A stretch of 64,000 bases of DNA from the NCBI GenBank assembly GCA_030789695.1, contig CM061142.1:46937987-47001986 (forward strand), written 5' to 3'. Shown piece after piece: positions 1,723-51,887 of the stretch. This stretch comes from Scilla litardierei. Lineage: Eukaryota > Streptophyta > Magnoliopsida > Asparagales > Asparagaceae. The translations under genes and the position numbers were made by a program. The notes beneath the pieces are model-generated. The model was given only the letters and a program-made list of their open reading frames with translations. It was not told the DNA's origin and did no database searches. Position 1 is the stretch's first letter; each line of letters begins with the position of its first letter.

Positions 1723-2110
1723 CCCAGTTTTTGCCCTAGTTTAGGAGGACTTTTTGATACTTTTTGCAGCCTTTTAAAGAGCTTTTTGGATCATTAGATT
1801 TAGCGTTTCCCTTGGAGATTAAAAGGTTATTTTTGTTGGATGCTATTGGATTCTCATTGGTTTGTCCCTCTTCTTATCAAAAAATCTATTTTTGTTGATA
1901 ATTTCTCTATTGCAATGAATTGTGTTGATTTTGTTATTGATTTTCTTATGAATTGCATGATGATTAGTGAGTAGTTTTATCGTCTTAGGGCATAGGGATG
2001 AACCCTATGGACCCTATTTCTAAATTGTGATGAATTGGTGAAATTCTTGCTAGAATTGATTAGGGTTAGGTTGGGATTGATTAACTACGGATAGCTAGGG
2101 ATTTATATTG

Positions 2111-2401
2111 ATTGGGATTTGCAAGAGATTGGGTCCCAATTGATAGGAAGCCCTAGAAATTCGATTTAGATTTACGATTGGACTTCTCTAGAATTGGTTT
2201 GCAAGAGATTGTGCCAAAGCTAGGATTTTTAATCGTGTTTCTATACCAATATCCGTTTGCAAGAGATTGGTCGGGTAGGAACTATCTCAACCTAGGTCGT
2301 AGTTCGAGTTTGCACGAGAGTGTGCTCGAGATACGGTTGAACGATGATGTCGTTCTTCACGCTAGCGGCTTAGGTTAGGGTTTGCAAGAGATTGGACCCT
2401 A
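2111..2401 (+). repeat. Five constant-loop hairpins in the leader of LTR A1
   Basis: Stems flank a near-constant loop. H1 ATTGGGA/TCCCAAT (2111-2140), H2 TTGG/CCAA (2194-2217), H3 TATCCG/CGGGTA (2250-2277), H4 TCGAG/CTCGA (2304-2329), H5 TAGGGT/ACCCTA (2376-2401). The loop is TTGCAAGAGATTGG or TTGCACGAGAGTG with small changes. The position is after the TATA-like box, so the hairpins would be in the transcript. Confidence 0.8.
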
Positions 2402-2829
2402 CCCTAGGTTCGCTATAGACCGGCAATAGCGAGAGAGCGTGAGCTTGGTTCTACATTTAGTTCCGACTAGTTCACCTAAAATTCAAGTCTAGCAATGATG
2501 TAACCTACGAATCACAACGATGAGATACGGTCCATAGCTGGGATTACCTACCCCTAGGCGCTTTATTTTATTCATATTTCTATCGACATTCGAACGATTG
2601 TGACATTTTTACCCCAAATTATTCTCGACCATTTTGATAGCTAGGTGATTGGAAGGAGACACTGTCATTGTTCCTCCCTGAGTTCGATACCCGCTCGCTG
2701 CTACACCGTGCGCTTGCGGTAAGACTACGAGTCGCTTGTCCCAGGTGTGTGTACTCCCGGGGCGCGACCACTAACGGTAGTGGAGAGAGCCCGAAAATCT
2801 TCTCTAAGTCCACTCACCGTCCCCTCTAG

Positions 2830-4763: not shown

Positions 4764-4872
4764 CTGAAAAACAAATAATCAAATCAACGATGTATATCAA
4801 TATATATGGGGGAGATGGGGTATAGTATATGTATATAGGAATTCATTTGAATTTTGGGCATAATGGGCTTAC
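4764..4872 (-). other. Candidate leader intron upstream of the ORF-1 gene
   Basis: Reading the minus strand, a good 5' splice site CC|GTAAGC lies at 4872 and a strong 3' site TTATTTGTTTTTCAG|G at 4764, giving a 109-bp AT-rich intron. The 3' site and its pyrimidine tract are conserved in the plus-strand copy (10412-10423). A second possible intron (4607-4665) is only 59 bp, short for a plant, and its acceptor is not kept in the other copy. This is inferred from consensus only. Confidence 0.4.
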
Positions 4873-5130
4873 GGATTGGGAGAATGGAGAAGAAGTAGGA
4901 GTTTTGGGGCGAAATGGGGGCAAAACGACGAAGGGGCGGGGGCGTCGGTGGGTGCAGTGACGGCGAATCGTCGGCGACCAGGAGCTGCGGTCGGCGACGG
5001 AGGTGGTGGGCGGATCGGGCGAGGAGGAACAGGGTTCAGGCGAGGGGGAGTCGAAGCGATGGGAATTCGAAGCGGCTCGGGGAAGAATTGGAAATTTTGC
5101 GTGCTCGAGATTCGATCTTCGTCCGCAGGG

Positions 5131-5140
5131 TTATATAAAG
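5131..5140 (-). promoter_or_regulatory. Internal TATA box ahead of the ORF-1 gene
   Basis: Reading minus, CTTTATATAA lies a few bases downstream of a perfect TCACTCGGCCGAGTGA palindrome (5146-5161) and ~260 bp upstream of the candidate leader intron. It copies the array-then-TATA order of the family A LTRs but sits inside the element between gag-protease and ORF-1. Confidence 0.5.
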
Positions 5141-5145
5141 TTGGG

Positions 5146-5490
5146 TCACTCGGCCGAGTGACGCGTTCACTCGCTTGAATGGCTCAGCATTAAATTTTTT
5201 TTGTGAATTTCAGCCTATCCTTACGACTCGACCGAGCAGCTTTTCCCATTCGGCCGAATGGATAAGTTCCACTAGGCCGAGTAGTAAGGTCGCTCAGTGA
5301 TAATGAAGCGTGTATGGTATCAGATTCACTCGGTCGAGTAACATAGTCATTCGGCCGAGTGGCAATAAACACTGTAAATCACAGAAAATAACAGAGAGTG
5401 GGTCTGTAGGATCTTCCCTGATTAGTACTCTACTCGGCCGAATAGAGTCTTCACTCGGCCGAATGAAAAGTTCATTCGGCCGAGTGGCTT
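5146..5490. repeat. Internal array of CTCGGCCGAG palindromes between gag-pro and ORF-1
   Basis: Nine copies or near-copies of the LTR palindrome occur here (for example 5146-5161, 5333-5340, 5350-5361, 5433-5443, 5452-5464, 5475-5487). The stretch is not otherwise alignable by eye with the LTR, so it is not simply an inserted LTR. It could be an internal enhancer, or DNA exchanged with the LTR. Confidence 0.8.
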
Positions 5491-8506: not shown

Positions 8507-8524
8507 TCCCCAGCAACGGCGCCA
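8507..8524 (-). other. Primer-binding site, tRNA-Asp type (family A, minus element)
   Basis: On the plus strand CCCCAGCAACGGCGCCA matches the 3' end of plant tRNA-Asp(GTC) (CCCCGGCAACGGCGCCA) with one mismatch. It lies six bases from the LTR end at 8531, so reverse transcription was primed from tRNA-Asp, as in Athila elements. Confidence 0.85.
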
Positions 8525-8889
8525 AAAACTTGATCGCGTCTGGCTATACACCCGAAAAACGACTTGTAGTCTTACCGCAAGCGCACAGTGTAGTGGCGAG
8601 CGGGTATTGAACACAGGGAAGACAAATGACAGTATCTCACTTTGATTACTTAGCTATCAAGAGAATAAGAATAGTTTTGAGGTAATAGTCACAATCGTTC
8701 AAATAGTAAGAAATATCAATATAATAAAAGGCGTCTAGGGATAGGAAACTCCCACTACAGACCGTCTCTCATCCTTGTGAATCATAAATTTCATTGTTGC
8801 TAAGCTTGAATATAGGTGAATTAGTCGCAACTTAATGTAGAACCAAGCTCACGCTCTCGAGCTATTGTCGGTCTATAACAAACCTAAGA

Positions 8890-9180
8890 TAGAGCCCACT
8901 CTCGTGCAAACCCTACCCAAAGCCGCTAGCGTGAAGATCGACATCATCATCCAATGGCATCTCGAGCCCACTCTCGTGCAAACTCGATCTACGATCTAGG
9001 TTATGATAGTTTGTATTCGTCCAATCTCTTGCAAACGAATATTAGTATAGATTAATAATTAAAAATCCCAGCTTTGGTCCAATCTCTTGCAAACCAAATC
9101 TAGAGAGCTTCAATTATCACTCTAAATCGAATATCTAGGCCTTCCTATCAATTGGGATCCAATTTCTTGCAAATCCCAAT
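8890..9180 (-). repeat. Five constant-loop hairpins in LTR A2
   Basis: Reading minus: H1 ATTGGGAT/ATCCCAAT (9180-9151), H2 TTTGGT/ACCAAA (9098-9073), H3 TATTCGT/ACGAATA (9041-9014), H4 TCGAG/CTCGA (8987-8962), H5 TAGGG/CTCTA (8915-8890, one G-U pair). The loops are as in A1 and A3. Confidence 0.85.
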
Positions 9181-9636
9181 CGATATGAATTCCTAGCTAC
9201 TCGAATTAATCAATCACAACCTAACCAATATCAATTCTAGCAACAAATCTACAAATTCATCACAATTCAAAGATTGGGTCCATAGGGTTCATCCACATGC
9301 CCGAGAACGACGGAACTACTCACTAATCATCATGAAAATCTCAGAAATAATAGATGGAATCATAGCACAATTCATTGCAAATAAGAAAAAATTCATAAAA
9401 ATGAGTTTTTTTAACAAGAAAGAACAAACCAATGTCGTTGCCAATGATCTCCAGCTGAGATTTCTCCAAAGAATAGCCGTCAAAAACCTAATAGAAGTCT
9501 CTAAAAATAATTCAAGTCTCCCCTAAAACTAGGGTAAAAACTAGGCTTAAATACAAGCCAAAATCGTCCAAAAAATCGTGACAAAACTGCCCCTGCGCAG
9601 CCCAGAATTCGCATTCCTAGCAGCAGTCGGAGAGGG

Positions 9637-10011
9637 TCAGTCCGCCGAGTGACCCTTGTCACTCGCCCGAGTGACCCTTGTCACTCGCCCGAGTGACAAA
9701 CCCGGTAAAATAACAGTAACTTTGGGGTTTTCAGGGGTTTGTCTCTCGGGTGACTCGGCCGAGTAGTCTTCTTCGTTCGGCCGAGCGAGCAATCATGCTC
9801 GGCCAAGTGAGCTTTCTCAGATTTTCCAATAACTTGGGCTCTTCTCTGTCTGAATTCTCTGTACCATCAGGTGTGTGCGATTTCTTACTCAGTCGAGTAG
9901 ACGTCCTTACTCGACCGAGGAAACGTGGAAAATCTTCAGTTCATATCCATTTCACTCGGGCGAGTCTGAACCTTTACTCGACCGAATGAGTAGTCTTGCT
10001 CGGCCGAGTGA
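9637..10011. repeat. Palindrome array of LTR A2
   Basis: About eleven CTCGGCCGAG-like palindromes, several degenerated to CTCGCCCGAG or CTCGACCGAG, on the promoter side of the TATA-like box. Confidence 0.85.
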
Positions 10012-14415: not shown

Positions 14416-14718
14416 TGATCACTCCATATTTTACACCTTTTTTCTGCATGTTTTCATGACGTTTTGATCGCCCATATTACATTTTTCACGATTATTCGAC
14501 GATATCGCGTTACTTTTCACTATTTCTTGTTTTTGTCGTATTTCAGGAAATATGAAGCGATTTGGAGCGAAAATGAGATCAAAGGATTTTCACGCACTTC
14601 GGAGTGCCGCCACGGCTTATTGGAGGACTTATTAGCGATAGAGGATGAGCGGAAGAAGAAGAAAATCGATAGGAGCGACGAGGAGGCAAAAAGGAGAAGA
14701 AATGAGCTCAGGAGCACC

Positions 14719-15074
14719 TCACTCGGCCGAGCAAGACTGGTCATTCGGCCGAGTGAAGGATCACCCTCGCTCGAGTAAAACAGATACGCACTGAAGATTT
14801 TCCATGTTTCCTCGGCCGAGTAAGGAAGTCCACTCGGCCGAGTGAGAAAGCTCACTCGCCCGAGTGGTACAGAGAATTCGTCCAGAGAAGCTGCCAACTT
14901 ACTAGAATTTCAGAGGAAGCCCACTCGGCCGAGCATGATTGCTCACTCGGCCGAATGAAGAAGACTACTCGGCCGAGCCATCCCGAGAGACAGACCCCTT
15001 AAAACACCGAATTACTGTTATTTTACAGGGTTTGTTACTCGGACGAGTGACAAGGGTTACTCAGCTGAGTGACC
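14719..15074. repeat. Palindrome array of LTR A3
   Basis: Eleven CTCGGCCGAG-type palindromes, mostly flanked by TCA/TGA, ending ~80 bp before the TATA-like box. Several are perfect 14-16-bp palindromes. Confidence 0.9.
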
Positions 15075-15527
15075 CTCTTCGACTGCTGCTATGGCTGCGA
15101 ATTCTGGGCTGCGCAGGGGCAGTTTTGTCACGATTTTTTTGACGATTTTGGCTTGTATTTAAGCCTAGTTTTTACCCTAGTTTCAGGAGAGACTTGAATT
15201 ATTTTTTAGAGACTTATATTAGGTTTTTGACGGCTATTCTTTTGGGAAATCTCAGCTGGAGATCATTGGCGACATCGTTGGTTTGTTCTTTCTTGCTAAA
15301 AAAACTCATTTTATGAATTGTTTCTTCTTTGCAATGAATTGTGCCATGATTAAATTTGTTATTTCTGATATTTTCATGATGATTAGTGAGTAGTTCCATC
15401 GTTCTAGGGCATGGGGGTGAACCCTATGGACCCGATCTTTGAATTGTGATGAATTTGTAGAATTGTTGCTAGAATTGATAATGGTTAGGTTGTGATCGAT
15501 TTATTACTAGTAGCTAGAAATTCATAT

Positions 15528-15819
15528 CGATTGGGATTTGCAAGAGATTGGATCCCAATTGCTAGGAATGCCTAGATATTCGATTTAGATTGATAATTGA
15601 AATTCTCTATATTTGGTTTGCAAGAGATTGGACCAAAGCTAGGATTTTTAATTATAAATCTATACTAATATTCGTTTGCAAGAGATTGGACGAATACAAA
15701 CTATCATAACCTAGATCGTAGCTGAGTTTGCACGAGAGTGGGCTCGAGATGCGATTCGACGATGATGTTGATCTTCACGCCAGTGGATTAGGGTAGGGTT
15801 TGCACGAGAGTGGGCCCTA
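15528..15819 (+). repeat. Five constant-loop hairpins in LTR A3
   Basis: H1 ATTGGGAT/ATCCCAAT (15530-15559), H2 TTTGGT/ACCAAA (15612-15637), H3 TATTCGT/ACGAATA (15669-15696), H4 GAG/CTC (15724-15745, weak), H5 TAGGG/CCCTA (15794-15819). H1-H3 share the loop TTGCAAGAGATTGG exactly; H4 and H5 use TTGCACGAGAGTGG. Stem sequences are unrelated to each other. Confidence 0.88.
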
Positions 15820-16189
15820 ATCTAGGTTTGCTATAGACCGGCAATAGCGCGAGAGCGTGAGCTTGGTTCTATATTAAGTTGCGACTAGTTCACCTACATT
15901 CAAGCTTAGCAACAATGAAATTTATGATTCACAAGGATGAGAGACCGTCCGTAGTGGGGATTTCCTATCCCTAGACGCCTTTTATTATATTGCTATTTCT
16001 TGCTATTTGAACGATTGTGACTATTACATAAAAACTATTCTTATTCTCTTGATAGCTAGGTAATCGAAGTAAGATACTGTCATTTGTCCTCCCTGTGTTC
16101 GATACCCGCTCGCCACTACACCGTGCGCTTGCGGTAAGACTACAAGTCGTTTTTCGGGTGTATATCCGGCCGCGATCAGTGTTGCAGTC

Positions 16190-19640: not shown

Positions 19641-21792
19641 ATCCCACAATAAGGTAGTAGATCTACTCACAAAGGCACATCTACAAGAATGTTAAGAAAT
19701 ACTAGTGGATACTATCGGTATGAGATAATGAAATAATTAGCTTTGATTGCAAGTTAGAGATGTTGGAAAATGAGTGCCGTTAAGATAATTATTGTAACTA
19801 ACCCACCTTGTTCAAAAAGTAGTATGCTATTTGGTACTCCATATCATTATAATTGCATATTGTGAATATATGAATGTGTTCATTAAATATAATAATTGCA
19901 TTAATAAAGTTCTTGGATTGTGCAAGAAGATTAAAATTATAATGACATTATGATAATGAGGTCAATCAACCACTAAAGCATAATCTAGATTGTTTCCCAT
20001 CATAAGAATGTCAAGATAAGACATTAATATTTTGGATAGACTAGTGTATAATAATCTTTACCAAATAAATGGTAATTATTAGTTTCATAACCATTCAATG
20101 TGAAGGCATCATGAAGTATTATCATATGCTTATTAGAGAATAAGTTCATTGAATGAGTTACCAAAAAGCTTTCGAATGGTAACATACTCTCACTATCTAC
20201 AGAAGATCTCAAGTGACTGCTAATGTAGGTTAGTATTCATATATAAGATGTGCTAAAGAACATTGCTTATGGGATGACTATGTGTTGGCTTTTACAAATG
20301 AAAGTTGTTGCTACGTATTTGCCGTGTATGGTCTAAAGAATACAATACGGGGTGGTTGGCAAGATGGGATTCATTTCATCCAGTATAGAAGGTGAGTATC
20401 TTAAGAAATTAATATGTAGTCATAGTAAATCCTTGGCTAAGTTGAAAATAATCACTTATATAGAGTAATAAGTTGGATCCCTATTGATTACAGTTTCGCA
20501 TAATTGACTAAAGTAATTTAGGTCTTTGTCTATTTTTATAGTTCACCATAACATAAACATCATAGAAATAGTTATAATGAAAAGACACGGATTACATAGT
20601 ATCCTAATGTGTTTGGATGAGAACATAGTCTCACACCAGCTAAATAATTACAATTTTAAAGTAGATGGTCTTTACATGTAGATAGTGTTATGGTTGTATA
20701 TGTGACTGTATCATAGGGTATGGTCAGTCACTATCAAAGTAAGAATCGAGCTTTTAGTGTCTCACATAGGTGATCGATCCAACATAATAAACAAGCGAAA
20801 AAATTTTAAATATATGAAATATATGGATGGTTAAATGATCAAAAAGAGTTTTGACAATGTATTAAAGTGTTCATAAAGCTTTATGATCACTTTGTTCAAT
20901 GAAAAATTAAATAAACCTCATATAGACCTAACAAGAAGGGAAACAGATGAGATGACATGGCTTACTAGAGAGACTACTGGCAACCCTGGGATAGCATTAG
21001 TGGCTCTACTGGCAACCCTGGGATAGCATTAGTGGCTCTACTGGCAACCCTGGGATAGCATTAGTGGCTCTGCAACCCTGCCAACGTCACTTGCAGTTGT
21101 CTAAGGTTATTAAAGATATAACATGCATGCTAGTCCAGCCACCACCAGGTAATCGGTGGCCTCATCTTATCAGAGCTACTAAGTAACTAGTAGCAGCTAC
21201 TAAGAAACATGTGGCCACCAACGATAGGTGGCTAGTAGGTAAGATGGAGCTCAGGCCATGAGGTCTAATGAATGATAAGTCATGGTCCAAGAGTTGGACC
21301 ATAACTTAAACTTAGCATGATGACATTTTAAGTTGATTTTGGAATACTAACTTTATTTAGTCGCATATCAGATATGATAAAAATACTAAGAGGTGCTAAC
21401 ACTCTAAATAAATGTTTTCTTTTCGTCTCCAAAAATAAATAACAATATTCAAGGAAATTGAATAATATGAAAACTCACGATTTAAGGTAAAGTTCAATTT
21501 TCCCAAATGTAAAAGTTCTCTTCTTTATTTTTCTCAAGAGTTAGCAATGTTTGGAATAAAGTATGAGTTATGTGCTTGTGGATTGTAGTGTGTTCATCAT
21601 CAAGGTAAAAGTATTATCACATTGGTAGGTAAGGAGATCATGAGTCTTTATCATCAAAATAGGTTTTCGGGTATCGCTTAAGTATATCATCACAAAAGTT
21701 TGATTTTGTGTATTAATTAATATCTAACTATGGTAGATTCTAGGTTTCATGAGCAAGGAATTTTTTTAAATTCTACTGCTTCTGCCTTCGCA
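19641..21792 (+). repeat. 3' end and probable 3' LTR of the degraded Copia element
   Basis: After the TRIM the RNase H tail resumes (19641-19760). TGTTGGAAAATGAGTGCC at 19761 looks like an LTR start. A possible end at ..CTTCGCA (21792) is only a guess. The AT-rich interior has no gene. It holds the 32-bp tandem triplication listed separately. Confidence 0.45.
20976..21071. repeat. 32-bp tandem repeat, three perfect copies
   Basis: Three adjacent identical 32-bp units, each beginning ACTGGCAACCCTGGGATAGC, at 20976-21007, 21008-21039 and 21040-21071. A partial fourth (GCAACCCTG) follows. The lack of any difference between units points to a recent local expansion, or to an assembly effect. Confidence 0.95.
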
Positions 21793-23186: not shown

Positions 23187-24798
23187 TGATGTGTCCATAT
23201 TTTACATCATTTTCATATCATATTTCCATCGCATTGCATGTCATCCCCGCGTCCAAATCCCACTTTTTACTGCGATTTTGGTATTTCTGACGATATTTCG
23301 AGTTTCGCAGTGTATTTTGAGTTTTCAGGGATTTTGGAGCGATTTGGACCCCCGCCTGGGTTTGGACACATCCGACATGCTCATAAGCCTGTTGGCGGGG
23401 CTCTGCAGGAGTCCGTCGCGTTCTCGAGTTGTTGGAGGAGAGAAAGAGGAGAAGGAGGAGAAAAGAGAGGCAGACAGAAAGAGAGGCAGCTGCTGCTGCA
23501 TCAGCATTTTCCCAGGAAATGCTCGGCCCGAGCAGCTGCAGCTCGGCCCGAGCCATGACACAAGCTGCAGACACGTCCAACTCAGGCCGAGCAGTTCATC
23601 TGCTCGGCCAGATGGCGCGCCCCGAGCAGCACCCGAGTAGACGCTGAGCAGCCGATCGAGTCACCCATCCTGAGCCCGAGCGAGATGTGACGCGGGCCGA
23701 GTTCCTGACCGAGTAGCTCCCACTCGGGCCGAGTCATATACTCAGCCGACGACACCTGGGGCATTTTTGTAAGTTTTGTGGATCGTGCAGATCGCGCGAT
23801 TGGGGGCTGCTGGAGCTCGCGATGCGGGCTCGGCTGAGGGAGGAGTTCACAGTACTGGTTTTTTAGGGAGATTAGAAAAGAGTTTTGAGAGAGCGATTTT
23901 TTGGAGAAGAATTTTTGGATTGATTTTTGTAGCAAATTCTGGATTGTTTATCGAATACTATTGTTTTCTGCTTTCTCTGGCTTTGTTCTTCGCTCACTTT
24001 CATTGTAAGTAATTATTAGCTCTAGTCTCTTTTGTTGCAAGAAATGATTTCCTACGCAATTTCGATATTTTAGTGCTTCCCGACCACCATGAGTGAGTAG
24101 ATTCCCTCTAGGGCCGATGGGTGAACCCTAGGATTTTAGGGGAAAATGTAGATCTGGATCCGTACATCGGATTGGGGATCTATGGTTGTATTTCGATAGA
24201 TCCTATCGAATCCGTAGATAACCCATACTGAGATCGTGCCCACGGTCTGTGGAATCGATGTGCTTAAGGGGTATCTAGGGATTCAAATAGGGAAATCGAC
24301 GGATCCAATCAAGGCACGCGACCATGCCCGGCTTGCGCCTTGAGGGAATCCGTCGACGAACTATATTGCTACGTCGAGGGCTACCGCCATTGCATCGACG
24401 AGAGCCACCGAAATACCCCGCAATTTCAACCCACGAGAGTGGTACGAATTGGGGGATTAATTCCCTAGCCCTAATGCGATGTGAGGAACCTATCCAACAT
24501 CAACCCCAACGATCCTAGCAGCGATCCCTAAAGCCCTAGTTCCTCTTATTAAATTACACAACAACAATCATTAACCCAACCCTTTTACTCCGACCGCTAC
24601 CTTGCTTCTAGATTTAGAAATTGACTGAGATTACCAAGGACACTATCACCGTCCCTGTGGGATTCGACTATCTTATATACTATAACTCGACACCGTCCGC
24701 TTGCGGATTGAGCCCGTAACCGTAGCCTAGGAGCCATATTACGCCTGGCGATCGTGACACCGCCAGGTGGATTCTACGTGTACATTACGGGCATGTCA
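23187..24798 (+). repeat. Family B Athila-like 5' LTR
   Basis: Starts TGATGTGTCC after the Copia gag and ends CATGTCA seven bases before a tRNA-Asp primer site; ~1.6 kb. It holds an array of CTCGGCCCGAG palindromes (23521-23750) and the Athila-wide motif CTAGGGCCGATGGGTGAACCCTAG (about 24099-24122, a hairpin). A leader follows that is rich in inverted repeats (24195-24440), for example TTCGATAG/CTATCGAA and TCGACG/CGTCGA. It has no family A constant loop. Confidence 0.8.
23521..23750. repeat. CTCGGCCCGAG palindrome array in the family B LTR
   Basis: About eight copies of CTCGGCC(C)GAG-like inverted repeats in 230 bp. The core matches that of family A, although the LTRs are otherwise not alignable by eye. 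Confidence 0.75.
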
Positions 24799-24804
24799 AG
24801 TTTT

Positions 24805-42261: not shown

Positions 42262-42587
42262 ACGACTGCCTCGTCTCAAATGATGTGAGAACTACTCCCA
42301 AGCGCAGGAGATCGTACAAGTAATATCCTGGTGAGTCCAGGTATCGAATCCACGGGACAACTGACCTGCAAAACTACGAACGTCAATCTGTAAAGAGTAA
42401 TAATACGATGATAACCTACCACCTATCAAACACAAAGATATAGGATCAAGAGTTTCAAATAGCAAAAGAAAATCCTACGGTATTTACGGTGACTTCGGTA
42501 GAGGTACAAATATGGGGAGTATGTGTTGGGTTTGATTTCGTTAGGGTGTGTGCAATCAATGATTATCAATACCTTTTCTATAACTCA

Positions 42588-43127
42588 ACGTTTCGTCCGG
42601 TAAGGGCACGAGAACGTCGGAAAGTATGGCGATCAAGCGAATAAAAACGTGCCAAAGGATTAATCACATGCAACGTCAACTTCATAAGGAAAATAAACAC
42701 GCATCACGAATAAGTCCGCAAAGATCAGATTCGTCTCAAGCATGCACACGTCTCCGTATAACATACCCAAACAATAAATGACTAGGAATTGACGAAGCAC
42801 GCGACTATACAATTAAAATAGGGCGAAAAGATATAGAAATCAACAATCACGACACCCTAACTACGTCAACACCAACACATATGAGATGGATGTGCTACGG
42901 TTGTGAGTTCATTAGGAGTTTATAATCGCTGAAATATCATGTCTTTCATATATCTCAACGCTTCACCCGGTCAAGGCGTGAAGACGTCGGAAGATGAATC
43001 GATAAAAACTAGTCAAAATAGCCGTATACGTATCACTAGCAACATTGATTTCATTAAACGATAAACGCAACAATAAGTTCAGATTAGTGAACATGAGTTA
43101 GCTAACCTTGTCAGGGCCTAGCCATAT
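42588..43127 (-). repeat. Constant-loop hairpins in the family C LTR
   Basis: On the plus strand: ACGTTTCGT/ACGAGAACGT around CCGGTAAGGGC (42588-42617), ACGCTTCAC/GTGAAGACGT around CCGGTCAAGGC (42958-42987), and TAGCTA/CTAGCCA around CCTTGTCAGGGC (43099-43124). The first two have 9-bp stems with one bulged base on the same arm. In the sister LTR the third stem is perfect (TGGCTAG/CTAGCCA, 47659-47684). Confidence 0.75.
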
Positions 43128-43962
43128 GGGATGTAAACAATATCGACAATAAGCAAATACCCAACAAATACGTTGTAGAAATCAATGTTACAAGCAATTT
43201 TGACATGATAATAGGGCTAAAGACATGAAATTTAGCGAATAAATACTCCTAACTACATCACAACCATAGCACAAGGAGATTAGCCACGCATGGTGTAAAG
43301 AAAATCAGATTTCATAGCCAAATACATCGTTTTAATAGCCAAAATACAATGAAATACACCAAATACGAGGTATAAGTTCAAGAATTTATCACCAGATCTC
43401 CACTTTAGAACCCAAAACTCCCTTAGAATAGGAAGAATAGCCTCTGGAATTTTTCAGAATTTTCCACTGGAGAAATACGCACAGTAGCCGCTCCAAAAGT
43501 CCCAAAATACGCCTGAATACCCCCTAAAAACCCTAGAATACGCTTAAATAATAGGCATTGCGGGTCTGGGGGCTTAACGGGTTCAAAACCCGCATCCATT
43601 TGCGCCTAAACCCGAACCGCTCAGTCGCTTGAAATCCTGGCCGTCCGATCGCCGCGGGATTTCACCACGGCTTGACACGTGGCCAAGCGGGTTGCGAAGT
43701 TCGCCCGCTTCGTTTAAATTCGAACGCAGCTCGAATTGATTTGGGCCGTAGGGTCTTGATCCTATGGCTGCAAGCTCGCTCCGCTGAACGATCTGACTTA
43801 TCCTCGGAATACATCTGGACCGTCCGATCAAAAGATCGAACGGCTGCGATCTCGCCCGCTCCGCTCCACTGAGATACGCGTCGGATAAAATATCTGCCGT
43901 TGGATCATCATCCAGCGGCTCTTCGTTCGCCGCGTCACCGCATTGCTGTGAGCTGCTCCTGG

Positions 43963-43984
43963 CCGTCGGATTCGAATCCGACGG
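43963..43984. repeat. Perfect 22-bp palindrome in the family C LTR
   Basis: The 11-bp arm CCGTCGGATTC is followed directly by its complement. Relatives with the same stem and a 4-nt spacer lie at 43898-43921 (spacer CATC) and 44116-44137 (spacer CGTG). The same set is in the sister LTR (22-bp copy at 48522-48543). Confidence 0.95.
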
Positions 43985-44532
43985 TGTAAACGACGCCGCG
44001 TCGTCCGGTATCAAAGCACAGCTTCGATTTCAATTTCGTTCGTTCGATCGTGATCGGGCGATCACAATGTCGCCACGTCTCCCCATCTTCAGCAGCGTCT
44101 GGGCGAAGATGCAATCCGTCGGATCGTGATCCAACGGTCGCTAAAAATCGCGTCGGCACGCTCGTCTTGGCCGTAGGATGAAGGCGGGAGTCGTTCTGAT
44201 GCTAACATGTGTGCGCTCGTGCGGCCGAATTTTCTTTTTATTTCTTCATTTTAAATTGTATTTTGCATTCAAAAATTCATAGTAATTAGCACAGATCTCA
44301 GAAAAATACAAATAAATGGTCGTTGGAATCGTGAGATTGAGACCTTGCCATGAAAAATATAAAAAATGCAGAAATACTCAATAGAATTCATGTTTTGTGC
44401 ACAAATCAAGTAATTTCTCTAATAATTGATGATATTAAAAATACGAACGTATTAGAGACCAATTAAGCATCATATGAACACAAAATAGGACTAAATGGGG
44501 GGTTTAATATGCAATATTCAATCCGAATCACA

Positions 44533-45776
44533 CCCCCCCAACTAGCGTTTTGCTAGTCCCTAGCAAAAAGAGTGATGAATACGGATGATTAGTAAAATAA
44601 TAATTCTATCAATTGCTTATGGCATGGTTCAATAATACGCTTTCCAACATGATTTATACCATCAATATACATAATCCATGCACAAGATCAATCACATGAA
44701 ATTTTCTCTAATTTAATTTGAATAAAGAACATGCAAGCATCGTTTTGCGCAAGCGAAAGTATAACATGACGTTATGTACTAGTCTTCTCATTTCCAAGGA
44801 GTTGGCATCTCAAAAAGATCGTTCAAATCATGGGTATTGAAGTTGCTCAGTGTATTCACCATTTCTTTTCTTTATTGGTTATGCGTAACGCGCATCAAGC
44901 AACATTCGCGGAAAATGTATAACTTGGATCGCTCCATCAAATGAGTGAGGTTCCGGTCAATGGCTCCCAAATCAGACGATAATATGGCATTAGGCCAAAA
45001 AGGACCCCTCGGACTGTACTACTTGAGCCAACCAAGTTATTTATTTATTGGCACACTTATTCAATTCATTCATTTTAAATTTTAGCCAAGTTTTTTTTTC
45101 TTTCTTTTTTTTTCGTAAGCAACTCAACACCCATAAATCGAACATAAACATCAATAACGAATGCCAAATTTCCTCTTCAACTTGAAGACTTTTCTAATAA
45201 ATCGTGTATACTTAAGCTTTTTCATCACATTATCATGCCTGAAATAAACTCAAACTATTTTGAGATATCAATCATGGCAATTGAAAATTTTCATGAATAG
45301 CATATTAACGAGCAATTCCATGAAGAAAAAAATTAATATTTCAGGCCATAAGCAATGTTTAGAACTCAATTAACGCATAATTACCCGCATTTGAGGAACA
45401 AAAGGGAGGTATAAATGATGAGAATTGGTGGTTCATTCTTTCCTTATGCCATGCTTTTGAAAAAAAAATCCTAAGATCTCATACACACCCCCCAACTAAA
45501 GATGGACATTGTCCTCAATGTCGAAAGGGGTACGAGTTTATTCAAGCAAGCATCCTAGAAAGCATATAAAATTCTACGCTACTGGAAAGAACACACCGTG
45601 TTCAAATGGCGGATCCTGAATCTTTAATGGTGGAGGAAGTTGTTCAATTTGATCCTTGCGCTCCTCGGCGAGTAATCTTCCTTCTGTAGCTAAATTGGAC
45701 TCCAGCAACACAACTCCAATCATCTCTATAAGCTGTTTACCAATGTCTTGCAAGAGATGAGTTATGTCAGTCCAAA
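44533..45776 (-). mobile_element. Family C internal non-coding region with polypurine tract
   Basis: Reading minus, the polypurine tract TTGGGGGGG (44541-44533) abuts the LTR. The Athila/Tat signature ACATTGAGGACAATGTCC followed by TTGGGGGGT lies at about 45520-45487. No gene is seen. Confidence 0.75.
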
Positions 45777-46694
45777 TTATTTTAAAATTCTTCGCCATAA
45801 ACATATTCCAAATATAGTCATCAAAATAGGTGAAGTATGGTGATGACAACTCCCTGAAAAATGTGCACTACGCTCGGTATGATGCGCAGTCAATGTGGAG
45901 AGTGGTAAATGATCTTGGGAAAAAACTGGGGAAGGGAATGGTTCGGGCTCCATAGAGATATTCTTTAAACCAATGTCCCTAGTCGTCTCCTCTTCCTGTT
46001 CATCCAAAATTGCTCGCTCATCCTCTACTTTGCACACACTTCCTGCCATGTCAATGTTTTCATTCGTGACTTCATCGTGACATGGCTCGCTCGGTATACC
46101 TGCAATAGAAGATAAACTCACATTAGATTCTGGAAATTGAATTTCAAAAGATTTATTTTCTTCTAAGCAAGTGGAAATCAGCTTAAGATTTTCAATAGAT
46201 TGCTGAATCTGCCGACTCCGAGCAAGGAATTTCTCTTGGAATTGATGGGACGTGGCCTCCTGTGTCTGAATAAGCAGTTGAACTTCCTCTTTCAAGTGTT
46301 GCAAAGGTACGTCTATGCTTTGCTCTCCTTGATCAAGGCTCGAAGGCTCCGTTGAATCGCACTCTGAAGTCTCTTTCATGATTTCTTCGTTCTCTTGTAA
46401 AGACTCCATGTACTTCCACGCCTTTGTCAGCGTCATGGCTCCCAAGAATTCCTGCAGCTGTGATCGTAGTCCACCTAGGAAGGACTCCATAAGCTCTTTC
46501 TTTGTAAACCTATGCTGTGGATAGCTCGATATTATGTCTGTGAACCTCCTCCAGGCCTGAAAGAAAGTTTCACAATCAGTCTGATTAAAACCAACGATCT
46601 TGAGCTTCTCCTTCATATGTTTGTGTGCAATTTCATACTCTGCATCATACGAACTGTTTGTACGATAAAAATTCATGTGTTCCAAATATTCCAT
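45777..46694 (-). CDS. Gag-like protein of family C (non-autonomous Athila-like element)
   Basis: A 305-residue open frame, starting ~110 bp after the primer site. The segment ETFFQAWRRFTDIISSYPQHRF .. LMESFLGGLRSQLQEFL (residues ~40-80) follows the pattern of the Athila/Tat capsid domain, where a W-x-R-F, a pair of basic/His residues and F-x-x-GL are usual. The rest is acidic and coiled-coil-like, with many Glu and Gln and no zinc knuckle or protease. No pol follows in the 2.3-kb interior, so the element is a gag-retaining non-autonomous derivative. An overlapping short minus-strand frame (45574-45849) may be its continuation after a frame change. Function is inferred from one conserved block only. 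Confidence 0.6.
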   Translation of the reverse strand: MEYLEHMNFYRTNSSYDAEYEIAHKHMKEKLKIVGFNQTDCETFFQAWRRFTDIISSYPQHRFTKKELMESFLGGLRSQLQEFLGAMTLTKAWKYMESLQENEEIMKETSECDSTEPSSLDQGEQSIDVPLQHLKEEVQLLIQTQEATSHQFQEKFLARSRQIQQSIENLKLISTCLEENKSFEIQFPESNVSLSSIAGIPSEPCHDEVTNENIDMAGSVCKVEDERAILDEQEEETTRDIGLKNISMEPEPFPSPVFSQDHLPLSTLTAHHTERSAHFSGSCHHHTSPILMTIFGICLWRRILK

Positions 46695-46802
46695 TTTTAA
46701 AAGAAAACAAAAAAATAATTAAAAAATCCTAGACTATAAGTGGAAGGATCTCACCGAATGTTCCTCTAAACGAACTGAAATCGTAGATCGCAAGTACTGT
46801 TG

Positions 46803-46820
46803 TCCCCGGCAACGGCGCCA
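46803..46820 (-). other. Primer-binding site, perfect tRNA-Asp match (family C)
   Basis: Plus strand CCCCGGCAACGGCGCCA is identical to the last 17 bases of plant tRNA-Asp(GTC), six bases from the LTR at 46827. It is a primer site, not a tRNA gene, since the rest of the tRNA is missing. Confidence 0.93.
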
Positions 46821-46826
46821 AAAACT

Positions 46827-49098
46827 TGCCTCGTCTCAAATGATGTGAGAACTACTCCCAAGCGCAGGAGATCGTGCAAGTAATATCCTGGTGAGTCCAG
46901 GTATCGAATCCACGGGACAACTGACCTGCAAAACTACGAACGTCAATCTGTAAAGAGTAATAATACGATGATAACCTACCACTTATCAAACACAAAGATA
47001 TAGGATCAAGAGTTTCAAATAGCAAAAGAAAATCCTACGGTATTTACGGTGACTTCGGTAGAGGTACAAATATGGGGAGTATGTGTTGGGTTTGATTTCG
47101 TTAGGGTGTGTGCAATCAATGATTATCAATACCTTTTTTATAACTGAACGTTTTGTCCGGTCAGGGCACGAGAACGTCGAAAAGTATGGCGATCAAGCGA
47201 ATAAAAACGTGCCAAAGGATTAATCACATGCAACGTCAACTTCATAAGGAAAATAAACACGCATCACAAATAAGTCCGCAAAGATCAGATTCGTCTCAAG
47301 CATGCACACGTCTCCGTATAACATACCCAAACAATAAATGACTAGGAATTGACGAAGCACGCGACTATACAATTAAAATAGGGCGAAAAGATATAGAAAT
47401 CAACAATCACGACACCCTAACTACGTCAACACCAACACATATGAGATGGATGTGCTACGGTTGTGAGTTCATTAGGAGTTTATAATCGCTGAAATATCAT
47501 GTCTTTCATATATCTCAACGCTTCACCCGGTCAAGGCGTGAAGACGTCGGAAGATGAATCGATAAAAACTAGTCAAAATAGCCGTATACGTATCACTAGC
47601 AACACTGATTTCATTAAACGATAAACGCAACAATAAGTTCAGATTAGTGAACATGAGTTGGCTAGCCTTGTCAGGGCCTAGCCATATGGGATGTAAACAA
47701 TATCGACAATAAGCAAATACCCAACAAATACGTTGTAGAAATCAATGTTACGAGCAATTTTGACATGATAATAGGGCTAAAGACATGAAATTTAGCGAAT
47801 AAATACTCCTAACTACATCACAACCATAGCACAAGGAGATTAGCCACGCATGGTGTAAAGAAAATCAGATTTCATAGCCAAATACATTGTTTTAATAGCC
47901 AAAATACAATGAAATACACCAAATACGGGGTATAAGTTCAAGAATTTATCACCAAATCTCCACTTTAGAACCCAAAACTCCCTTAGAATAGGAAGAATAG
48001 CCTCTGGAATTTTTCAGAATTTTCCCCTGGAGAAATACGCACAGTAGCCGCTCCAAAAGTCCCAAAATACGCCAGAATACCCCCAAAAACCCTAGAATAC
48101 GCTTAAATAATAGGCATTGAGGGTCTGGGGGCTTAACGGGTTCAAAACCCGCATCCATTTGCGCCTAAACCCGAACCACTCAGCCGCTTGAAATCCTGGC
48201 CGTCCGATCGCCGCGGGATTTTACCACGGCTTGACACGTGGCCAAGCGGGTTGCGAAGTTCGCCCACTTCGTTTAAATTCGAACGTAGCTCGAATTAATT
48301 TGGGCCGTTGTATCTTGATCCTATGGCTGCAAGCTCGCTCCGTTGAACGCTCCGACTTATCCTCGGATTACATCTGGACCGTCCGATCAAAAGATCGAAC
48401 GGCTACGATCTCGCCCGCTCCGCTCCACTGAGATACGTGTCGAATAAAATATCCGCCGTTGGATCATCATCCAGCGGCTCTTCGTTCGCCGCGTCACCGC
48501 ATTGCTGTGAGCTGCTCCTGGCCGTCGGATTCGAATCCGACGGTGTAAACGACGCCGCGTCGCCCGCTATCAAAGCACAGCTTCGATTTCTATTTTGTTC
48601 GTTCGATCGTGATCGGGCGATCACAACGTCGCCACGTCTCCCCATCTTCAGCAGCGTCTGGGCGAAGATGCAATCCGTCGGATCGTGATCCGACGGTCGT
48701 TAAAAATCGCGTCGGCCCGCTCGTCTTGGCCGTAGGATGAAGGCGGGAGTCGTTCTGATGCTGACACGTGTGCGCCAAGATTCGTGCGGCCGAATTTTCT
48801 TTTTATTTCTTCATTTTAAATTGTATTCTGCATTCAAAAATTTCATAGTAATTAGCACAGATCTCAGAAAAATACAAATAAATAGTCGTTGGAATCGTGA
48901 GATTGAGACCTTGCCATGAAAAATATAAAAAATGCAGAAATACTCAATAGAATTCATGTTTTGTGCACAAATCAAGTAATTTCTCTAATAATTGATGATA
49001 TTAAAAATACGAACGTATTAGAGACCAATTAAGCATCATATGAACACAAAATAGGACTAAATGGGGGGTTTAATATGCAATATTCAACCCGAATCACA
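46827..49098 (-). repeat. Family C LTR, shared copy (5' LTR of one unit and 3' LTR of the next)
   Basis: 2272 bp, closely matching 42267-44532 with scattered single-base changes. On its far side, instead of a target duplication, is the polypurine tract and interior of a further unit (49099-49255). Confidence 0.9.
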
Positions 49099-49255
49099 CC
49101 CCCCAACTAGCGTTTTGCTAGTCCCTAGCAAAAAGAGTGATGAATACGGATGATTAGTAAAATAATAATTTTATCAATTGCTTATGGCATGGTTCAATAA
49201 TACGCTTTCCAACATGATTTATACCATCAATATACATAATCCATGCACAAGATCA
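49099..49255 (-). mobile_element. Truncated second family C unit (interior 3' end)
   Basis: 157 bp matching 44533-44690 almost base for base (CCCCCCAACTAGCG .. TGCACAAGATCA). It then stops abruptly at the junction with Tat-like DNA at 49256. Confidence 0.9.
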
Positions 49256-50871: not shown

Positions 50872-51887
50872 TCTCCCACTCACACTTGAGGGGATTGTAA
50901 GAGAACGTCTTTCTCTTAGTTCTTTCATCTATCATACCAAGAAATAGCCCGTGCGACCGTCATACGCGTAGAGTCTGTTGTTGTGCACTTGTTAGAGATA
51001 CACAACAACCTTGAAGGTGCAAAGTTGAGTAGTTCAACGCATGCTTTACCCTAGATTATTTCTTCACATTTCTTATACTTTATATTCAACAATTGAATCC
51101 CATCTGGATTACAATTGGCTGGCCAGCTTTGAATCATTAAAGTCCAAATGTGAATATGAAATCAATCTTCCTCTTCTTGCGAACCTTCTGATCTTGACTA
51201 GACTCGCTTTTCTAAAGTTCCCCGCCGAGCCGAATTATGATAGCTCATAAGTAACACTCTAAGATAGCGATCATCTCGTCAAATCTAAAGGAACCAATTG
51301 GAGTCCTTGAGGGTAAGAGTTAAGGCCCATATGGCCTTTGAGTCTCACATAATAGCAAATACTATTGCTACTAACTCAGTGGTCGAAAAACATACGTGGT
51401 ATGAACACGTATTACAACATCGCACCTTTCCCAGGGAGTGTATGTCTCAATGATGTTGTAAGGATGATGATCAGGCACCACATTGTCTAACTTTGAGTCC
51501 CTTATTCTACTTAAATAGTCCTTTGGACTCACATCCCGCATTTAGACAGATAGGATTTCCAAAAAATCCTCTTAGATCTTTTGTAAGCATCCATATGATG
51601 CAGATCTTTCATGCGACCATTTTGTTTAAGTCATGACTCTTAAATCATCCGTCTGATGATTTTGACTTCAAACAGGTCTCATCTCTATTCCATCCGTCTG
51701 ATAGAATAAGGCGGTTGCTCATGTGAGAGAGCCAACCTCAATCTGTCCGACATACTAGAATTCAGCTGAGATTTCAAAAATGTACACAAACATTTCTTAA
51801 GAAATTCATATGCAATGTTTGAAAAAGAACTTATTCTTTTATTAATTTTTGATCATTTACAGACATGGGAATTTACATTGGTACAAC
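50872..51887 (-). mobile_element. Copia element, 3' non-coding region
   Basis: Between the RNase H remnant and the 3' LTR; no ORF of note. Contains related motifs such as CCATCCGTCTGAT and CATCCGTCTGATG (51645-51705). Confidence 0.6.

Follow-up and report, generated by a model that had tools for sequence, protein, structure and literature searches.

A constant-tip array of five leader hairpins in an Athila-type retrotransposon family of Scilla litardierei: an RNA structure under selection and a putative packaging signal

Introduction

Retrotransposons with long terminal repeats (LTRs) make up much of large plant genomes, and how they mark their genomic RNA is, to our knowledge, largely unknown. 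In the leaders of retroviruses related to murine leukaemia virus, Konings et al. reportedly described a GACG double hairpin in 1992. Small RNA viruses carry packaging signals that are degenerate and spread over the genome, and the barley element BARE is of the copia type. Here we describe an array of five hairpins in the leader of an Athila-type Ty3/gypsy family (family A) of Scilla litardierei, centred on one LTR, A3, in a window of 64,000 nucleotides (assembly GCA_030789695.1, contig CM061142.1, positions 46,937,987 to 47,001,986 of the forward strand). The source genome is 3.68 Gb in size, and the window lies on its contig 13. We are nearly certain that the hairpins are an RNA structure under selection, and we tentatively propose that they act as an assembly or packaging signal.

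Several described systems offer partial parallels. Dispersed packaging signals have been reported in satellite tobacco necrosis virus and other small RNA viruses (PMC6475782, PMC6281560), and the dimer sites of yeast Ty3 (PMC11381356) and Ty1 (PMC5454406) are hairpins in the leader region of LTR retrotransposons. The cis signals for dimerisation and packaging of barley BARE are reportedly conserved in a partner unable to make its own Gag (PMC3735527). A stem-loop in an Athila transcript has been proposed as the source of a small RNA, siRNA854 (PMC3276544). Among the highest-ranked results of open-access literature searches, judged by title and opening of the abstract, none described such a hairpin array in a plant LTR.

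The hairpin array and its apical element

The window holds three LTRs of family A, named A1, A2 and A3. The features on which the analysis rests are as follows, in window coordinates.

14416..16178, + strand: LTR A3, starting with TGATC and ending with GATCA, ends common to A1 and A2
981 to about 2770, + strand: LTR A1, starting with TGATC
10316-8531, - strand: LTR A2, starting with TGATC and ending with GATCA
15156..15162, + strand: TATA-like box TATTTAA in A3, with the predicted transcription start ~30 nt downstream
15528..15561, + strand: hairpin 1, loop element 15538-15551, extended imperfect stem 15507-15582
15612..15637, + strand: hairpin 2, loop element 15618-15631, extended stem 15586-15662
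15669..15696, + strand: hairpin 3, loop element 15676-15689
15723..15746, + strand: hairpin 4, loop element 15728-15741 in CAC[GAGA]GTG form, extended stem 15714-15756
15794..15819, + strand: hairpin 5, loop element 15800-15813 in CAC[GAGA]GTG form, extended stem 15786-15827
15832..15873, + strand: possible sixth, shorter hairpin, CRCG[AGAG]CGTG on a TAGA-CC/GG-TTCTA stem
2107..2407, + strand: five-hairpin array of LTR A1, loops 2119-2395, orthologous to the A3 array
8884..9184, - strand: five-hairpin array of LTR A2, loops 9172-8896, orthologous to the A3 array

A preliminary description of this DNA, made from the letters alone, had pointed to five hairpins in A3 with a constant loop and five unrelated stems. 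All five are where it placed them, with loops starting at 15538, 15618, 15676, 15728 and 15800; three carry the loop word TTGCAAGAGATTGG and two TTGCACGAGAGTGG, on the stems it had named. The stem of hairpin 4 needed amendment: the GAG reported for it is present, but as part of a longer stem, TGAGT/GCTCG. Hairpins 1, 2, 4 and 5 rest on longer imperfect stems. In the extended stem under hairpin 2, three pairs are altered on both sides among A1, A2 and A3, and one copy is unpaired at one of them.

The comparison was widened to 59 LTR leaders, namely the three of the window, 32 and 20 fetched by exact loop word, and four from arbitrary genome windows. None was dropped, the degraded hairpin 4 of one leader (L177) was placed from a model match, and some leaders probably come in pairs from the same element, as its two LTRs, and are hence not independent. 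All five hairpins stand in register in A1, A2 and A3 and in all 59 leaders, and their spacing is fixed across the family. Hairpin 5 takes the CAA/TTG form in A1 and in 37 of the 59 LTRs. The hairpin at 15832-15873 may be a sixth, less well supported member: it is present in 34 of 35 LTRs and its four inner pairs are formed in 31 of the 34, but single folds in A1, A2 and A3 are barely better than those of shuffled sequences (z -0.33 to -1.24).

The tip had first been described as a constant loop of 14 nucleotides. Its constancy holds; its openness does not, since it folds into a closing U·G pair, a bulged UG, a stem of three base pairs and a GAGA tetraloop of the GNRA type. The inner stem is CAA/UUG or CAC/GUG, so that a compensatory change from A-U to C-G distinguishes the two loop forms. 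Over the 295 hairpins of the 59 LTRs the third inner pair is AT in 217, CG in 70, TG in 5, GT in 2 and AC in 1 (294 of 295 paired); a GNRA tetraloop is present in 288, and the bulged TG, the closing pair and the GAGA are near-invariant. Of the five window copies with the second loop form, four have a minimum-energy fold that favours an alternative loop of six nucleotides. Nevertheless, the GAGA form is preferred there because the third inner pair covaries, and the same covariation rules out an open loop of 14 nucleotides.

LTR A3 is 89% identical to A2 and 76% to A1. A purine-rich tract immediately 5' of A3 suggests that it is a 3' LTR, and ~570 bp 5' of A3 are common to the sequence 5' of A1. 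A primer binding site adjoins A2 at 8524 (one mismatch) and recurs in the loci L168, L177 and L182 (one or two mismatches); we take it to be of the Athila type and assign it, on the same assumption, to tRNA-Asp. Within the LTR, the longest stretch of good conservation, 15451-15948, includes the array; there A1 and A3 are 82-86% identical in five windows of 100 columns, against 60-77% just before and 63% just after. Positions 16047-16146 and the 200 columns at the start of the LTR are equally conserved. The leader of A3, from about 15185 to the LTR end, contains 16 ATGs, all within 15313-15939 on the + strand.

Two further features were observed in these LTRs. Their U3 parts hold many palindromic repeats resembling ACTCGGCCGAGT (1591-1632, 9645-9697 and 14720-14960). 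A box around GGGTGAACCCTA, at 15382-15426 and 24089-24130 on the + strand, is one of three short stretches common to the otherwise unlike LTRs of family A and a second family, B.

Folding beyond chance and copy number

Chance is excluded as the origin of the array, because at least five consecutive flanking pairs (G-T allowed) surround the tip in 248 of the 295 family A hairpins and in 2 of 121 unrelated sites at which viral contigs contain a loop word. These viral matches were themselves judged to be chance and served as a null only. The array of 371 nucleotides folds at -113 kcal/mol, compared to -91.6±4.4 for shuffled sequences (z -4.85). Folded singly, 12 of the 15 window hairpins fall below z -2 against shuffles, the other three being hairpins 2 and 4 of A3 (-1.40 and -0.70) and hairpin 3 of A1 (-0.75). 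Taken together, these 15 hairpins (14 distinct rows) are 89.3% paired, against 69.6 (standard deviation 2.1) when shuffled, and their covariation reaches 0.580, against 0.198 in shuffles and 0.215 in the best slid control. The flanks outside the stems of the five hairpins show no clear similarity to one another (2 of 20 comparisons with p about 0.03, as chance gives).

When the window was scanned for hairpins whose tips are alike but whose stems differ, 27 pairs were returned on the + strand, 15 of them in family A, and 26 on the - strand, 11 of them in family A; most of the remainder fall in palindromic GC arrays or CTCGGCCGAG repeats. The same scan yielded 0-2 pairs on one strand of ten simulated sequences. 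Trained on the 15 window hairpins, a sequence-structure model recovers those 15, as expected by construction, and two weak matches. A match at 21275 (E 0.007) is a plain hairpin without the bulge and was judged to be chance. Rfam gave no match at the gathering score over the whole window, and six sub-threshold matches (E 1.6-8.5) were likewise attributed to chance. A microRNA precursor was rejected, given that the stem arms vary while the tip is constant and that Rfam returned no match at the gathering score.

The exact loop words occur 167,774 (84,400+83,374) and 32,129 (16,292+15,837) times in the genome, and the reversed control words 5 (1+4) and 6 (3+3) times. Twenty arbitrary windows of 10 kb (200 kb) contain four complete arrays and one cut at the window end, which corresponds to roughly 90,000 arrays in the genome if these windows are representative. 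A lone motif was also noted in L173 and a weak model match in L171 (E 0.13).

Selection on pairing in the sense strand

Changes in the stems were counted on a tree built from the columns outside the hairpins, with a null in which substitutions were placed randomly on the branches. Pair 7 entered the test of 35 LTRs and was excluded from the tests of 39, 24 held-out and 59 LTRs and from the counts of branch changes. Several stem pairs exist in two alternative Watson-Crick states among the 35 LTRs: pair 4 of hairpin 2 is TA in 19 and CG in 16, pair 4 of hairpin 3 is CG in 19 and TA in 16, with none unpaired in either case, and pair 6 of hairpin 4 is TA in 19, CG in 14, TG in 1 and CA in 1. Double changes that keep the pair numbered 6 in the 35 LTRs, with 0.91±0.86 expected, a count reached in 0 of 500 replicates. 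The corresponding figures were 8 against 0.76±0.80 in 39 LTRs, 9 against 0.79±0.85 in the 24 held-out LTRs and 12 against 1.07±1.02 in all 59, each reached in 0 of 300 replicates.

Breaks of pairs on internal branches were few, 3 against 19.8 expected in 39 LTRs, 2 against 11.2 in the held-out set and 5 against 23.2 in the 59. Pairs were kept 26 times and broken 3 times on internal branches, compared to 29 and 18 times on tips (Fisher p 0.009), a pattern that fits a need for pairing in active elements and its decay once a copy has been inserted. Each loop column changed 0.16 times on average on internal branches, compared to 1.12 times for columns between hairpins; on tip branches the two values were 0.40 and 0.66 (Fisher p 2.8e-5 for the contrast of internal and tip branches in loop and inter-hairpin columns). 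Note that most LTRs were picked by exact loop word, which lowers the tip figure of the loop; this bias works against the contrast. When only the three window LTRs were tested, comparisons of A1 with A2 or A3 gave P 0.0005-0.006, but that of A2 with A3 did not agree (P 0.23 and 0.10, with few changes).

A number of observations weigh against selection on the pairing. Some stem pairs are often unpaired in the 35 LTRs (pair 5 of hairpin 5 in 14 and pair 6 of hairpin 2 in 11), as is pair 7 in hairpins 2 (19 of 35) and 5 (20 of 35). Total breaks are only moderately under expectation: 29 against 40.4 in 35 LTRs, 23 against 33.0 in 39, 21 against 25.8 in the 24 held-out LTRs (a value as low in 17 of 300 null runs) and 42 against 49.0 in the 59 (as low in 18 of 300). 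On tips the breaks exceed expectation (37 against 25.8 in the 59 LTRs), and therefore the deficit sits on internal branches. An entire hairpin could also be copied when subfamilies recombine, which would mimic a double change and is a process absent from the null, and the held-out LTRs come from the same subfamilies, making them fresh copies and not fresh lineages. Finally, a generic test of all leader column pairs in the 35 LTRs (G statistic, background correction, tree null of 100 replicates) found no pair at E<0.05, its power being low since independent splits are few. The covariation anticipated in the preliminary description is present in one form and missing in another: in the number of double changes the proposed pairs beat all null replicates, with the same outcome in the held-out LTRs, but the generic search of all pairs returned none. 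The tests confined to the proposed structure pose a narrower question than the generic one.

The strand of the signal is that of the transcript. Over the 35 LTRs the sense array folds on average at -106.2 kcal/mol, the antisense at -80.6 and shuffled sequence at -81.2, and the sense strand folds lower than the antisense in 35 of 35 LTRs and 24 of 24 held-out LTRs (59 of 59). Pairs that RNA tolerates as G·U outnumber the A·C cells that would mirror them, 123 to 17 among 1,573 cells, 78 to 20 among 600 in 20 new leaders and 7 to 3 among 120 in the four arrays from arbitrary windows. Changes to G·U and to A·C numbered 13 and 1 on internal branches and 22 and 11 on tips. The first proposal, that selection keeps the stems paired so that they present a constant apical element, is thus strongly supported by the pairing, covariation, tree and strand tests, and we hold it nearly beyond doubt that the leader hairpins are a selected RNA structure.

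Related hairpins in other families

Two other Athila-type families of the window carry a GAGA-capped hairpin.

24416..24455, + strand: single hairpin of the family B LTR, with a CCAC[GAGA]GTGG core (z -3.19)
47291..47334, - strand: GAGA-capped hairpin of a family C LTR, ATACG[GAGA]CGTGT

The family B LTR spans about 23187-24799, and its hairpin lies about 357 nt before the LTR end, compared to 365 nt for hairpin 5 of A3. A scan of both window strands for GAGA within three Watson-Crick pairs and an outer stem of at least 6 gave 19 matches: 14 in the A arrays, one at the sixth hairpin of A3, one in B, two in two C LTRs and one elsewhere (17089). These hairpins in B and C, together with a weak one in the contig L122, are hints of a wider Athila rule but too little to claim it. 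A hairpin array as a rule for Athila is not claimed, given that one family C hairpin folds like shuffles and that the copies of the contig L123 lie in duplicated blocks.

Other observations concern these families and contigs. The family C element (42267-49255, - strand) has LTRs at 49255-46827 and 44690-42267, of about 2.43 kb and 97.6% identical, with only about 2.1 kb and a gag-like open reading frame between them, and looks like a non-autonomous gag-only element. Its leader (47145-47688, - strand) contains three sites with a common GCCyTGAC core in differing stem contexts, two of which fold well and the third no better than shuffles. The contig L122 (BMWJ01000030.1) has an Athila primer site and a weakly supported GAGA hairpin (z -1.57). 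On L123 (NZ_JABGCI010000027.1, 4856-5298, - strand), five hairpins with a common TCC[ACTT]GGA tip occupy an Athila-like leader (z -1.18 to -2.86) and are located in duplicated blocks. The sequence-structure model found nothing below E 0.3 on either contig. The two contigs are filed under bacteria, Streptomyces clavifer (L122) and Blastococcus endophyticus (L123), yet both carry the Athila primer site and plant-type LTR retrotransposon sequence, which is probably contamination. Near a copia-type element of the window, two adjacent hairpins at 51640-51710 (- strand) have a common ATCAGACGGAT tip and differing stems.

A putative assembly signal and its alternatives

The array is placed in the predicted leader, between the TATA box and the primer binding site and upstream of gag. 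Two loci with the same LTR, taken from the arbitrary genome windows, show what follows it, encoding Pfam matches to Retrotrans_gag, Asp_protease_2 and ATHILA (ORF-1).

L177, 726-8813: family A internal region with gag, protease and ATHILA ORF-1
L182, 2378-10000: family A internal region with gag, protease and ATHILA ORF-1 (the locus ends before its 3' LTR)

No Pfam match to reverse transcriptase or integrase was found among 20 sense-strand open reading frames of at least 100 amino acids (7 in L182, 13 in L177), a search that shorter or broken remnants would escape, and because of this both copies look non-autonomous. A signal acting in cis on the genomic RNA is favoured because the array sits between promoter and primer site and is kept in copies apparently without pol.

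We suggest that the most likely role of the array, with a likelihood somewhat short of even, is that of an assembly or packaging signal of the genomic RNA. The tip is probably the recognised part, because it is fixed and the stem is free; the stems would then be holders only. Five copies at fixed spacing could bind several molecules, making the array a multivalent docking site in cis that would mark the genomic RNA for assembly into Gag particles. The array might be read by a part of Gag that is not a zinc knuckle, by an associated protein, or through GNRA-receptor RNA contacts that join two genomes. We count in favour of this role that the array lies within the longest stretch of LTR conserved between A1 and A3, that families B and C also have a GAGA-capped hairpin, and that repeated hairpins with a constant tetraloop are reportedly a recognised form of retroviral leader signal.

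Some findings count against the packaging role. A CCHC zinc knuckle was not found in five Gag pieces of two family A copies (L182, L177), although one match each was obtained in a copia control and in a piece of L123, and its absence from these pieces argues against a copy of the retroviral mode. The retroviral nucleocapsid contacts described in PMC7599994 are with exposed G bases, and GAGA loops are mentioned there as stand-ins. A GNRA loop, in contrast, is compact. A fuller scenario, which we regard as doubtful, is that the five GNRA-capped hairpins form a multivalent scaffold by which Athila RNA without pol enters particles and is copied by the enzymes of autonomous relatives, read through the shape of tetraloop plus bulge and not by a zinc knuckle; a GAGA-capped hairpin at the corresponding place in the leader would be retained by Athila-type families (B, C), and, helped by this signal, one family would have grown to an LTR number of the order of 100,000 within a single genome.

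Other functions would draw on much the same features. Multivalency and a fixed apical element fit any protein specific for sequence and shape equally well, and the leader would be part of all genomic transcripts, so that a host RNA-binding protein might dock on the hairpins in several copies and export the unspliced genomic RNA or protect it; such a nuclear export or stability element, for which no host protein can be named, is in our view unlikely. Control of translation is similarly unlikely, even though the 16 ATGs of the A3 leader would be hard for ordinary scanning to pass and a structured leader could permit ribosome shunting or internal entry beyond them, given that shunts and entry sites need not carry five identical tips. 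Kissing-loop dimerisation through the self-complementary TGCA or TTGCAA, suggested in the preliminary description, is quite improbable. TGCA does occur in all five loops of 23 of the 35 LTRs and in four of five in the other 12, and yeast Ty3 dimerises in vitro through a palindrome containing UGCA in a hairpin tip (PMC11381356). However, predicted fold and covariation agree that the palindrome of family A is partly paired and not an unpaired apical loop: its CA lies within the inner stem, where the CAA of TTGCAA pairs with UUG and the third pair covaries. TTGCAA is lost in the CAC/GUG form, and the family B hairpin keeps CAC[GAGA]GTG without any TGCA.

Explanations that need no RNA function fare worse. 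Tandem duplication could explain the common loop, and the hairpins of L123 do lie in duplicated blocks, but that the array consists of functionless relics of duplication or chance is very improbable in the light of the viral-contig null, the tree-aware tests of double changes and the flanks, which are not clearly similar. Inverted repeats can also be read as DNA, as cruciforms or as sites for a DNA-binding protein, and the excess of G·U over A·C is weaker on tips and in the arrays from arbitrary windows. Since the antisense strand folds no better than shuffled sequence and internal branches reach G·U far more often than A·C, palindromes acting at the DNA level are hardly credible.

The putative packaging signal comes with a clear expectation, testable in vitro, that a change of the tip abolishes function and a change of both stem sides preserves it. 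The array of 290 nucleotides is its own internal replicate, with five versions of one motif, and the genome itself supplies natural variants by the tens of thousands. Furthermore, the motif could mark the leaders of family A in searches.

Comparison with known systems

The account of BARE, as far as the portion consulted goes, contains no hairpin array (PMC3735527). The proposal for Athila siRNA854 concerns a stem-loop as such, and family A differs in that its tips are constant and not its stem sequences. The UGCA core described for Ty3 resembles that of family A, whose core is partly paired and whose loop is GNRA. With the packaging signals of small RNA viruses the array has in common several short hairpins, a common loop motif and multivalency; unlike them, it is compact, strictly spaced and confined to the leader.

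The GACG double hairpin also consists of neighbouring leader hairpins with one constant tetraloop. The Gag pieces examined in family A had no recognisable zinc knuckle, in contrast to the retroviruses with the GACG pair, and the role of its array is putative. The family A array has five hairpins and not two, its tetraloop is GAGA, of the GNRA type, set on a bulged UG and a closing U-G pair, and it is carried by the LTR of a plant Ty3/gypsy element.
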